A stretch of DNA of 64,000 bases from Streptomyces wuyuanensis (GTDB lineage Bacteria; Actinomycetota; Actinomycetes; Streptomycetales; Streptomycetaceae): positions 1 to 64,000 of the forward strand of contig NZ_FNHI01000004.1 in assembly GCF_900103455.1 (NCBI RefSeq), written 5' to 3'. Both the position numbers and the translations under genes were made by a program. Position 1 is the first letter of the stretch. Every line of letters starts with the position of its first letter. Shown here in pieces: positions 44,565-48,315 of this stretch. Under the pieces are notes generated by a model. That model was not told the DNA's origin. It searched no databases and was given only the letters and a program-made list of their open reading frames with translations.

Positions 44565-44750
44565 TCACTCCATGGGGTAGATGTCCCCGGACCCCATCGC
44601 GCTCTCCTGCTCGCTCTGCTCCTGGAGCCTGCGCGCCTTCTCCTTGAGCCGCTTGCTCTCCTCGGGATCGTTCACGCGCTCCGCGGCCTGCTTCAGCTCC
44701 TCGGCCTTCTGCCGCATCTGCCGGACCCGGCCGCCGATTTCGTCTGACAT
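44565..44750 (-). CDS. Small coiled-coil protein (DUF6381-like)
   Basis: This 61-residue, highly charged helical protein (VRQMRQKAEELKQAAERVNDPEESKRLKEKARRLQEQSEQE) forms a two-helix coiled coil with a central NDPEE turn. I recall a Streptomyces family, DUF6381, of this form. The start is ATG at 44750, eight bases after GAGGAGG; ATG 44756 is too near the ribosome site. Function is unknown. It lies downstream of the Asp23/AmaP operon, 260 bp away. Confidence 0.75.
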   Translation of the reverse strand: MSDEIGGRVRQMRQKAEELKQAAERVNDPEESKRLKEKARRLQEQSEQESAMGSGDIYPME

Positions 44751-44938: not shown

Positions 44939-45010
44939 GTCGCCCCAGGCCACGCGCCGCCCGGAACCGTCGCCCCAGGCCACACGCCGGCCTGACCCGT
45001 CGCCCCAGGT
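44939..45010. repeat. 30-bp tandem repeat, about 2.5 copies
   Basis: GTCGCCCCAGGCCAC starts at 44939 and 44969, and GTCGCCCCAGGTCAC at 44999, giving a 30-bp period with decay between copies. The last copy runs into the stop of the AmaP-like gene. A minus-strand frame through it would give repeated WGDGSGRRVA, but nothing supports translation. Confidence 0.65.
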
Positions 45011-45597
45011 CACGTCACGCGCTTCGCCCGGTGCTTCTGGGCGCGCAGCCGCACCTCCGCGGGCAGCGACGCCAGCCCCGCCGAGTCGCGCGCGTGGGTC
45101 AGGGCCTCGGCCGAGAGGCGGTGCAGGGTCTCGCCCGGTGACGCGAAGGGTTCGAGAAGAAGCCGCACACGGGCCGCCGGGGCCGTGCGGCGGCCGTGCA
45201 GGACGACCTGGGTCCGGGCCACACCGTCCAGGTCCTCTGCCTCCCTCGCGAGCACGGCCTCCATGGCCCGGCCCCGCAGCAGCGCCCCCTCCCCGTCACC
45301 GCTGTCCACCAGCACCTCGGTCAGCCGCGAACGGCGGAACTGCGCCAGCAGCCACCAGAGAGCGAGGAGGACGACGACCACCAGTACCGCGATCGCCACG
45401 GGCCACCACCAGCCCTGGTCCTCCCACCGCTGCCGGCGGCCATCGCTCAGCAGGACGGCGTCGGCCCCCGGCCACGGCCACCAGGACGGCACCGGCAGCC
45501 GCAGCCCCGCCGCCAGGACCGCTCCCCCCAGCAGGACGAGCACCAGACCGGCCAGCCCGATCAGCACCCGGTTGACGACCCGCAGCATCCCGCTCAC
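45010..45597 (-). CDS. amaP: AmaP-like alkaline shock membrane anchor protein
   Basis: This 195-residue protein has an N-terminal helix (VLIGLAGLVLVLLGGAVLAAGL) and a second helix (WWPVAIAVLVVVVLLALWWLLAQF, about 63-87), then a cytosolic Asp23-like domain. AmaP in Staphylococcus anchors Asp23 at the membrane. It is the last gene of a five-gene operon and overlaps the DUF6286 gene by four bases. The start is GTG at 45597. Confidence 0.85.
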   Translation of the reverse strand: MSGMLRVVNRVLIGLAGLVLVLLGGAVLAAGLRLPVPSWWPWPGADAVLLSDGRRQRWEDQGWWWPVAIAVLVVVVLLALWWLLAQFRRSRLTEVLVDSGDGEGALLRGRAMEAVLAREAEDLDGVARTQVVLHGRRTAPAARVRLLLEPFASPGETLHRLSAEALTHARDSAGLASLPAEVRLRAQKHRAKRVT

Positions 45598-46265
45598 CCC
45601 TTCTTCGCCGGGCGGCGCACCTGTACGGACAGAGCCGGCCGCCGCACCAGCCCGAGCTCACGGATGCCCTCGCCCAGCACGGTGTCCAGATCGGATCTGA
45701 CCTCGTCCAGTTCGCGGAAGTGGGACACCGCCCGCACCGCGACCCGGGAGCGCCGTACCCGCACCCGTACCGACTGCACCCCGGAGACCTCCATCGCCCG
45801 GTCGCGCAGGACGAGTTCGGCGGCGTCCCGGTCGAGCCCGGCCCGCACGTCCGCGTCGCCCGCCCGGCGGCGCATGGGCAGCAGATTCCGCAGCCCCGGC
45901 GTCACGGCGAGCACCACCAGCCAGACTCCGACCGCGACGGCCGCACCCGCACCCGCCAGCACCCAGGTGTCGTCCACCGGTCGGCTCGCCAGTTCGCCGG
46001 CGAGCGACCGCCGCCAGCCCATCCCGGGGCGCTCGGCCCGTACCGAGGCGACGTCGAACAGCAGCAGCCCCGCCCCGGCCGTCACCACCAGGGCGAGCAG
46101 CGCGGCGGGGACCCGCCGCCGCGACCAGAAGCGCCCGGCGCCGCCGTCGTCGTCGGCCGCCGGCAGCGGCCGGTACGCGGCGGCGGAGGCCGACTGGTCC
46201 AGTTCCCGTGCGGATTCCGTGACCGGGCCGCTCCCCCGGACGGATCCCTTCACCGGTTCGCTCAT
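45594..46265 (-). CDS. DUF6286-type membrane protein of Asp23 operon
   Basis: This 223-residue protein has a polar N-terminal tail, two membrane helices (VPAALLALVVTAGAGLLLFDVA and DTWVLAGAGAAVAVGVWLVVLAV), and a C-terminal basic soluble part (about 150-223: VRVRVRRSRVAVRAVSHFRELDEVRSDLDTVL). The order resembles a second AmaP-like anchor. I recall DUF6286 as its Streptomyces label. The start is ATG at 46265, overlapping the upstream gene by four bases. Function is inferred from the cluster only. Confidence 0.75.
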   Translation of the reverse strand: MSEPVKGSVRGSGPVTESARELDQSASAAAYRPLPAADDDGGAGRFWSRRRVPAALLALVVTAGAGLLLFDVASVRAERPGMGWRRSLAGELASRPVDDTWVLAGAGAAVAVGVWLVVLAVTPGLRNLLPMRRRAGDADVRAGLDRDAAELVLRDRAMEVSGVQSVRVRVRRSRVAVRAVSHFRELDEVRSDLDTVLGEGIRELGLVRRPALSVQVRRPAKKG

Positions 46266-46684
46266 CGGAGCCTCCCCTGGGCAGCCCGGCGCGTGTGGAC
46301 GGAGTGCAGCCGCTCGATCCGTACGGCGACCTCCGGCACCGCCATTCCCGCCAACGCCTCTACCCGCTGGGCGACATGACGACGCACGGCACGGCACTGC
46401 CCGCCGATGTCGCACGGGTAGTCGAGCTCGAGGCTGATCCGTACCCGGGCGTGGTCATGGTGCACGGTGACCGTCGCATGCGGTGCGGAGCCGCCCTCCG
46501 GCACATGGGTGAGTGCCTCACGGGCCGCCTGGGCGGCGATCTTCGCGACCACCCGGTCGGCGATGGCGGTCGCACCCCGCTCGGCCGGGGGGATCCGTTT
46601 CCCCCCGTGGTTCGAGGACGCCGGTGCGGGCGGGCCCGCGGCCGGTGCCGAAGGGACCGGGGAGGGAGGCGTCTCGGCGGCCAC
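46262..46684 (-). CDS. Asp23/Gls24-like protein, short
   Basis: This 140-residue protein has a Pro/Ala-rich start and then an Asp23-like domain (GATAIADRVVAKIAAQAAREALTHVPEGG...ATVTVHHDHARVRISLELDYPCDIGGQCRAVRRHVAQRVEALAGMAVPEVAVRIERL). The pattern of a helix followed by beta strands with alternating Val matches Asp23. The start is GTG at 46684, just after the preceding stop. It probably pairs with the full Asp23 protein encoded first in the operon. Confidence 0.8.
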   Translation of the reverse strand: MAAETPPSPVPSAPAAGPPAPASSNHGGKRIPPAERGATAIADRVVAKIAAQAAREALTHVPEGGSAPHATVTVHHDHARVRISLELDYPCDIGGQCRAVRRHVAQRVEALAGMAVPEVAVRIERLHSVHTRRAAQGRLR

Positions 46685-46690
46685 GCCGGG

Positions 46691-46882
46691 TCACCCCCGC
46701 CGGTCGCCGTGCTCGCGGCCCCGGAAGAAGTCGCTCGGTTCGAGATCGCCGTCGAGCACGCGCCCGACGACGAAACCGACCGCACCCAGTGCCGCCACCA
46801 GCAGGAACGCCGCGAACCCGCCGAAGTACCCGGCGAATCCGAGCGCCATTCCGGCCAGCAGACCGGCCACCGCCATGCTCAT
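46691..46882 (-). CDS. Small Gly/Ala-rich membrane protein (DUF2273-like)
   Basis: This 63-residue protein has two short hydrophobic helices (AVAGLLAGMALGFAGYFGGFAAFLLVAALGAVGFVVG) and a charged tail (DGDLEPSDFFRGREHGDRRG). In Firmicutes Asp23 operons a DUF2273 membrane peptide takes this place, and this is probably the counterpart. The start is ATG at 46882 after GAGAGGGG. Confidence 0.8.
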   Translation of the reverse strand: MSMAVAGLLAGMALGFAGYFGGFAAFLLVAALGAVGFVVGRVLDGDLEPSDFFRGREHGDRRG

Positions 46883-46906
46883 TACGGGCCCCTCTCTCGA
46901 GCTCCG

Positions 46907-47365
46907 CTACTGGATCCGCGGTTCCGTCTCTTCGTCTTCCTCGTCCGGCAGCTTCACATCGCCGACGGCGATGTTGACCTCGACGACCTCCAAGCCGGTC
47001 ATCCGCTCGACGGCGGCGACGACGTTCTCGCGGACGGCGCGGGCCACGTCCACGATCGCGACGCCGTAGTCGACGACGATCTCCAGGTCGAGGGCGGTCT
47101 GCTTCTCGCCGACCTCGGCCTTCACCCCGCGGGTGACGGGCGGTTTGCCACCGGGCACCCGGTCGCGCACCGCGCCGAAGGTGCGGGACAGTCCGCTGCC
47201 CATGGCATGGACACCGACCACGTCCCGAGCCGCGAGCGCGGCGATCTTCTCGACGACGCCGTCGGCGATGGTGGTGCGGCCCCGGGTCGCCGGGTCGCCG
47301 CCGCCTCGCCGGACCGTGCCGGCCGGTTCCTTGGTCACACTGACATCCGTGTCGGTCATCGCCAT
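46907..47365 (-). CDS. Asp23/Gls24 envelope stress response protein
   Basis: This 152-residue protein is the clearest Asp23-family member in the cluster: TTIADGVVEKIAALAARDVVGVHAMG, VKAEVGEKQTALDLEIVVDYGVAIVDVARAVRENVVAAVERMTGLEVVEVNIAVGDVKLP. Asp23 forms a membrane-tethered network and answers cell-wall stress in staphylococci. It heads the operon. The start is ATG at 47365 after GGAAAGG; ATG 47359 is possible. The acidic C-terminus (DEEDEETEP) is typical. Confidence 0.9.
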   Translation of the reverse strand: MAMTDTDVSVTKEPAGTVRRGGGDPATRGRTTIADGVVEKIAALAARDVVGVHAMGSGLSRTFGAVRDRVPGGKPPVTRGVKAEVGEKQTALDLEIVVDYGVAIVDVARAVRENVVAAVERMTGLEVVEVNIAVGDVKLPDEEDEETEPRIQ

Positions 47366-47478
47366 GCGTACCTTTCCGGGCGGTGGTGAACTCCCGACTA
47401 CGCTGACCACACTAAGTCCGCTTGCACGCTCCCGCGCCGGTGGATGCGGCAGGCTGGAGCAATGACGAGGCGGTGCCG

Positions 47479-48315
47479 ATGACGACGGCCGAGGGTTGGA
47501 CCGGGGCGGTGCGGGCCCGGCTGGGGCTGGGCAGACTGCTTCCGCTCGGTACCGCGCAGGACGGCGCCTGGCTGGCGGAACGGGCGGCGGAGCCGGTGTT
47601 GCGGCGGGCCGCGGCGGAAGTGCCGGGCGTGGTGCCCGGCACGATCAGGACCGGACTCGCCGACCCGGGCTCGGCCGGGACGCCGGCCGTCCCGCCTCCC
47701 CCGGCCGCGCTGCCGCCGGGGCCGCTGCGGATCGAGGCGGAGTTCGCTTCGGCCACCGCGGCGCCCCTTCCCGAACTGGCCGAGCAGCTGCGTACCGCGC
47801 TGCTCACCGCCGCCGGGGAACACCTCGGACTCCCGGTCACGGTCGTCGATCTCCGGGTGACGACCCTGCTGGACGCGCCGCCGGAACCCGCGGGAGCACC
47901 GGCGCCGGTACCCGCCCCCGGGTCAGAGGGCTTGCGGCCGGAAGAGGCGCCTGCCGCGGCGAAGGAGCCGGGTGACGGGGCACGCGCCGGGGACGCCCTG
48001 CGGGGGTCACGGGGGACGGCAGCAGCCGAGAGGCCGGTGGAGGGTGCCGCTGAGCGGCGGGGCGGCGCCGGTGCGGCGGAACCGCGGGACGTGATCGCCG
48101 CCGCCGCGGCCGCAGTCCCGGGCGTCGCCCGCCTCACCGGCACGCTCGGGGCCGCCGTACGGGTCGAGGAGTCCGGCGTACGGGTGGAGTGCGCGACGGC
48201 GTCGGGGCACCGTCCCGTGGAGGTGGCCCGCGCGGTCCGCGCCGCGGTCACCTCGGTCCTGTTGTCGCCCCTCCCGGTCACGGTCCTCGTCACCGAGGTC
48301 GACTGCGGGGCGTGA
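47479..48315 (+). CDS. P10-family-labelled protein with two degenerate Asp23-like modules
   Basis: This 278-residue protein is divergent from the Asp23 operon across 113 bp. I recall Streptomyces homologues labelled nucleopolyhedrovirus P10 family, which tells nothing about role. By eye, residues about 20-120 (WLAERAAEPVLRRAAAEVPGVVPG... LRIEAEFASATAAPLPELAEQLRTALLTAAGEHLGLPVTVVDLRV) and about 205-278 (DVIAAAAAAVPGVARLTGTLGAAVRVEESGVRVECATASGHRPVEVARAVRAAVTSVLLSPLPVTVLVTEV) each follow the Asp23 pattern of helix, AVPGV turn and beta strands. A Pro/Ala/Glu-rich linker joins them. The start is ATG at 47479 with GAGG upstream. Confidence 0.7.
   Translation: MTTAEGWTGAVRARLGLGRLLPLGTAQDGAWLAERAAEPVLRRAAAEVPGVVPGTIRTGLADPGSAGTPAVPPPPAALPPGPLRIEAEFASATAAPLPELAEQLRTALLTAAGEHLGLPVTVVDLRVTTLLDAPPEPAGAPAPVPAPGSEGLRPEEAPAAAKEPGDGARAGDALRGSRGTAAAERPVEGAAERRGGAGAAEPRDVIAAAAAAVPGVARLTGTLGAAVRVEESGVRVECATASGHRPVEVARAVRAAVTSVLLSPLPVTVLVTEVDCGA

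Follow-up and report, generated by a model that had tools for sequence, protein, structure and literature searches.

The Asp23 family is widespread in Gram-positive bacteria, and its molecular role is an open question. In a 64,000-nucleotide stretch of Streptomyces wuyuanensis DNA (positions 1 to 64,000 of contig NZ_FNHI01000004.1, hereafter the window), five genes of an Asp23/AmaP-type module form an operon at 45010-47365 on the minus strand, back to back with a divergent gene that we call div. The initial annotation had described a tightly packed leftward operon encoding an Asp23 protein, a small membrane peptide, a short Asp23-like protein, a DUF6286 protein and an AmaP-like anchor, together with a divergent partner, and family searches found each of these products in its place. 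It overlooked two things: the product of the divergent gene has two Asp23-like domains of its own in tandem, and a further Asp23 cluster, linked to a sigma gene, lies elsewhere in this genome. The relationship between div and such sigma-linked loci is our main subject here.

The operon and its products

The operon is transcribed in the order asp23A, DUF2273-like, asp23B, DUF6286, amaP, with gaps of 24 bp and then 6 bp followed by two 4-bp overlaps, and third-position GC is of the coding type for Streptomyces in all six genes, div included (0.84-0.92). We compared the locus with 20 loci of 12 kb from other Streptomyces genomes, chosen for their match to div and referred to as type I. All six genes keep the same order and orientation in 20/20 of them, so the arrangement is not due to chance. 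An enoyl-CoA hydratase gene adjoins the module in 20/20 of these loci, a short-chain dehydrogenase/reductase (SDR) gene in 19/20 and a GH15 gene in 17/20. Eight further loci, termed type II, carry a second copy of the set, with some genes missing or truncated, and are without hydratase, SDR or GH15 neighbours. Among the genomes with no div match, seven gave no DUF6286 or Asp23 match either, two of the seven being less than 85 percent complete.

The first gene, asp23A (46907-47365, minus strand, as for all operon genes), encodes a soluble Asp23 family protein of 152 amino acids that matches PF03780 with an E-value of 6.6e-29 (100.9 bits, cut-off 28); no transmembrane segment was predicted in any of 29 homologues. 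The second, shorter Asp23 protein (140 amino acids) is the product of asp23B (46262-46684, GTG start). It too exceeds the PF03780 cut-off of 28, with 31.5 bits; the family is matched by 20/20 of its homologues, and it aligns with asp23A at an hhalign probability of 99.7.

Two of the remaining products are putative anchors. The DUF6286 protein (45594-46265, 223 amino acids) passes the curated cut-off of PF19803 (E-value 8.5e-34). An N-terminal tail of about 50 residues precedes two transmembrane segments, present in 28/28 homologues, and the C-terminal domain adopts an alpha-beta-beta-alpha-beta order in the AlphaFold2 (AF2) model, where the predicted local distance difference test (pLDDT) score of these blocks is mostly 88-97. 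The final gene, amaP (45010-45597), encodes an AmaP-type anchor of 195 amino acids with two transmembrane segments, which matches NF033218 with an E-value of 9.3e-24 (84.1 bits, cut-off 55); all 21 homologues match the same model at 0.01 or better. Asp23-A and Asp23-B weakly match the C-terminal part of this AmaP model.

The assignment of the small membrane peptide (46691-46882, 63 amino acids) is less firm. Its match to PF10031 (E-value 0.022, 15.2 bits) falls under the cut-off of 25.4. Homologues match this family weakly (17/21 at 0.1 or better), and the best match, a paralogue in the same genome with an E-value of 1.7e-4, also stays under the cut-off at 22 bits. Operon position and two hydrophobic segments seen in the hydropathy profile agree with a DUF2273 protein, hence the name DUF2273-like. 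A DUF2273 protein accompanies Asp23 in staphylococci, and is not essential to the definition of the module.

The divergent gene and its sigma-linked relatives

The div gene occupies 47479-48315 on the plus strand and encodes a soluble protein of 278 amino acids. Its open reading frame was listed from a TTG at 47422, and the start is best set at the ATG at 47479, since homologous proteins begin there. The AF2 model (mean pLDDT 84) comprises two alpha/beta domains, at residues ~30-131 and ~200-275, separated by a low-confidence linker; both are Asp23-like according to the model and to hhalign comparisons. No transmembrane segment was predicted in 22/29 homologues, and the single weak hydropathy peak of the window protein lies within a helix and strand of domain 2, so that it holds no convincing transmembrane segment. 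The family is well conserved, with 37 invariant columns across 26 diverse sequences, and no Pfam or NCBIfam model matches it above its cut-off.

A single-sequence search returned div-like matches in 105/121 Streptomyces genomes. A profile search separated the matches into two groups, complete div (E-value ~1e-30 or better) and N-half-only matches, and the latter, where examined, were sigma-linked proteins. Counted from the profile-search table, complete div occurs in ~104/148 genomes sampled in the order, all of them Streptomyces, and among 296 genomes sampled from the phylum it was again confined to this genus.

Contig C43 of this genome illustrates what these sigma-linked proteins look like, in a second Asp23 cluster (L014 5268-9715). 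The cluster opens with the gene for an extracytoplasmic function (ECF) sigma factor, followed by one for a 184-amino-acid protein that combines a C-x20-H-x3-C-x2-C-type segment with an Asp23-like domain. Further Asp23-type genes, a DUF2273-like gene, and genes for Asp23-B, DUF6286 and an AmaP-position product follow. Like the window locus, the C43 cluster has Asp23-A, DUF2273-like, Asp23-B, DUF6286 and AmaP-position genes in matching order; unlike the window locus, it begins with the sigma factor and the zinc-motif Asp23 protein, runs in a single direction, and contains an extra Asp23 gene and a 105-amino-acid gene. The motif is that of zinc-type anti-sigma factors, and its four metal-ligand-type residues are invariant in 10/10 aligned sigma-linked proteins. 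The label 'anti-sigma' rests on this motif and on adjacency to the sigma gene, because Pfam zf-HC2 was not detected at the zinc-type segment of these proteins.

In other Streptomyces the sigma-linked locus takes a divergent form: one strand encodes the sigma factor, the zinc-motif protein and a small Asp23-like protein, and the opposite strand encodes Asp23-A, the DUF2273-like peptide, DUF6286 and AmaP. We collected 80 named loci by means of a peptide pattern from the zinc-motif protein, a sample that consists of its close relatives. The sigma gene is directly upstream in 79 of them, the small gene directly downstream in 79, asp23A divergent in 74, and the zinc motif recognisable in 76. In four cases checked, the sigma genes proved to be true ECF by Pfam. 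Full-length zinc-motif proteins also occur outside Streptomyces, including in another family of the class. A genome of another family in the class (L151) holds a relative of the zinc-motif protein in which the Cys/His motif is mostly gone, perhaps a further independent loss.

Profile comparison relates each half of div to one gene of the sigma loci. The N-half aligns with the Asp23 domain of the zinc-motif protein over 118 columns with 36 percent identity (hhalign probability 99.7, E-value 5e-26), and the homology extends to the short helix and GRxLPLG segment preceding this domain. The C-half aligns with the small protein encoded next in the sigma loci (probability 98.6, E-value 8.5e-16); this small protein has no match with the div N-half (probability 2.7). 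The zinc-motif protein itself aligns with asp23A and asp23B at probabilities of 93.5 and 91.7, while the N-half of div reaches only 33.6 when compared with asp23A directly. Homology of the div N-half to Asp23-domain proteins is thus supported, in terms of profile comparison, by way of the sigma-linked protein. No ECF sigma gene adjoins div at the window locus or in any of the 20 type I loci compared, and the C..HxxxCxxC segment is absent from the div sequence. Div therefore looks like both sigma-locus genes joined, without the zinc segment and the sigma factor, and it takes the same place, divergent from asp23A.

In a FastTree phylogeny, the div sequences form one clade (0.998) beside a clade of sigma-linked Streptomyces proteins (0.923), the two being joined at 0.756, and C43-type and other-family proteins fall outside both. 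Because another family of the class has zinc-motif proteins as well, it is simpler to assume that the zinc segment and the sigma factor were lost on the branch leading to div, with moderate support. We found no report of a div family, of its origin from a two-gene fusion or of a sigma-free locus in the open-licence papers searched.

Is DUF6286 also part of this family? Its C-terminal domain has the same alpha-beta-beta-alpha-beta order as div domain 1 in the AF2 models, the sigma-linked proteins weakly match both PF03780 and PF19803, and DUF6286 is the top match of the div profile in div-less loci (E-value 1.4e-4). The hhalign probability is 45 for DUF6286 against div and 0.06 against asp23A. 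A distant relationship between DUF6286 and Asp23 domains is likely, if not proven. The models also give an initial view of the structure of DUF6286 and the div family. For both models the same fold ranks first in the PDB, that of the C-terminal domains of cation diffusion transporters (for div, Z 9.7 over 76 residues, root mean square deviation 2.2). What is shared is an arrangement of helices and strands, and the match was not read as a sign of function. A single-sequence search found no solved Asp23 relative.

The intergenic regions between sigma genes and asp23A contain a pair of GTRAC-type and GTGTC-type motifs at fixed spacing, on both strands. With a relaxed pattern the pair was found on the sigma side in 50/65 regions and on the asp23A side in 32/65. 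A strict pattern gave 31 and 21 of 65, respectively, against 0.04 per set in base shuffles. The pair also lies ahead of the sigma gene in the C43 cluster and in one other-family locus. This pattern fits an ECF promoter that would serve both operons. The corresponding motif was found in 0/29 div loci, the window included, where 260 bp upstream of div were scanned. A search of this genome for a regulon with the pattern GTGACG-N16-TGTCC led to no conclusion: it returned 17 sites against 5 in the reversed control, and its spacing misfits the C43 cluster's own site (15 bp).

A possible membrane scaffold and its alternatives

We consider it rather probable that the operon products build an Asp23 scaffold tethered to the membrane, to which div contributes a soluble accessory subunit. 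AmaP and DUF6286 would both serve as anchors, their cytoplasmic alpha/beta domains keeping the soluble proteins Asp23-A and Asp23-B on the inner side of the membrane, and the DUF2273-like peptide would provide a third membrane component. Div would be a soluble tandem Asp23-like adaptor, derived from the Asp23 domain of an anti-sigma-type protein and the small Asp23-like protein. Docking on the scaffold has probably been retained, with div as a cap or other accessory subunit; as the sigma factor and the zinc motif are gone, div would no longer control a linked sigma factor. The docking of div is suggested by homology, and the direction of evolution is what we infer from the sequence comparisons above.

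Tethering, a two-anchor hetero-oligomer and a role in envelope maintenance are suggested by analogy with Staphylococcus aureus, where AmaP holds Asp23 at the membrane, Asp23 forms filaments and loss of either protein induces the cell-wall stress response (PMC6954212). The window locus shares with this alkaline shock module the Asp23 protein, the two-transmembrane AmaP-type anchor, the DUF2273-like peptide and their grouping in one operon, and adds a short second Asp23, the DUF6286 anchor and the divergent tandem protein. In S. aureus the system is also under SigB control, sits at the membrane and forms filaments. The initial annotation had proposed a heteropolymer under the membrane on the strength of two anchors and two Asp23-like proteins. 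An Asp23/AmaP-type module with several Asp23-fold proteins and more than one anchor does make a hetero-oligomer plausible, and DUF6286 and AmaP each have a predicted cytoplasmic alpha/beta domain; the DUF2273-like peptide comes on top of these two membrane proteins, and div contributes two more Asp23-like domains.

Several observations weigh against this explanation. Div does not reach the PF03780 cut-off, and only 2/26 homologues match the family weakly (best E-value 0.012). The link between the AmaP C-terminal domain and Asp23 is weak in hhalign comparison. The join of div with the sigma-linked proteins has support of just 0.756, and the root of the tree depends on few outside sequences. Genomes with no div match often retain the operon: twelve type I loci keep asp23A to amaP in place in the absence of div, which is therefore not obligatory and would be dispensable to the scaffold. 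Finally, one S. venezuelae Asp23 transcript, RS07310, which may come from either type of locus, goes down rather than up after ethanol shock (PMC9769785).

That report is one of two exceptions, among the papers searched, to the earlier statement that such modules are unstudied in Streptomyces, which is otherwise nearly right. The other is a review noting that ECF286 and ECF292 adjoin soluble Asp23-family proteins predicted as anti-sigma factors (PMC8999054), so that an Asp23-sigma link has already been predicted in the literature. Likened by description, the window locus shares with these systems the homology of the div N-domain to the ECF-adjacent Asp23 protein and the divergent position beside asp23A; it differs in that both the sigma gene and the zinc motif are missing, and in the fusion of div with the small Asp23-like protein. 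One might speculate that, in sigma-linked loci, the Asp23 domain and its zinc-type anti-sigma segment read the polymer state and free an ECF sigma factor that re-makes the scaffold, and that at the window locus, which lacks the sigma gene, the former sensor now serves as an adaptor, either structural or engaged in cross-talk. We regard this broader model as less likely than not. The window locus and its sigma-linked relatives link the Asp23 scaffold to a concrete signalling partner, on the evidence of homology, gene position and a promoter-like motif in common. Whether an anti-sigma factor senses the scaffold thereby becomes directly testable in Streptomyces.

Could div still be a regulator? 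It might bind a sigma factor encoded elsewhere, such as the ECF sigma of C43, or compete with the C43 anti-sigma candidate for the scaffold, which would create cross-talk between the clusters. Its homology to an anti-sigma-type protein, preceding linker helix included, and the presence of a sigma-linked cluster in the genome are compatible with such a role. However, div has no C-x20-H-x3-C-x2-C segment, which would be expected for sigma binding, and the 113-bp region upstream of it has no ECF-like motif, so that we hold this unlikely.

Alternatively, the operon might act in the balance of lipids or acetyl-CoA and not form a physical scaffold. Such a role has been proposed for Bacillus subtilis YqhY, which has the Asp23 domain in common with our proteins, lies in a different gene neighbourhood (accB-accC-yqhY) and affects acetyl-CoA carboxylase (review, PMC8144471). 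The near-constant hydratase and SDR neighbours of type I loci speak for this possibility. However, these genes lie outside the operon, type II copies lack them, and the anchors AmaP and DUF6286 indicate a membrane structure; we find the proposal quite improbable. A third possibility, that div no longer has a function and is decaying after the loss of its sigma locus, is very improbable even though div is cleanly absent from 12 loci with an intact operon, because its completeness in most genomes sampled in the order, its invariant columns and its confident fold amount to a conservation not expected of a neutral relic.

The intergenic region and other local features

The divergent intergenic region spans 113 bp (47366-47478). 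An alignment of type I regions revealed conserved blocks at 47405-47425 and 47443-47457, common to most type I loci and partly dyad-like in some species. Simple -10/-35 assignments in this region were not decisive and were dropped. Downstream of the operon, a DUF6381 gene (44565-44750, minus strand; PF19908, E-value 1.4e-29) lies between the SDR gene and amaP, and was found in 0/20 of the other type I loci compared. In another Streptomyces, a type I locus (L133 4099-5783) has lost asp23A and most of asp23B and keeps the DUF6286 and AmaP genes. Near the start of div, ATGACG is present twice in 47462-47484, 17 bp apart. Div homologues elsewhere start at an ATG right after the conserved block; here that frame meets a stop and the start has moved to 47479.

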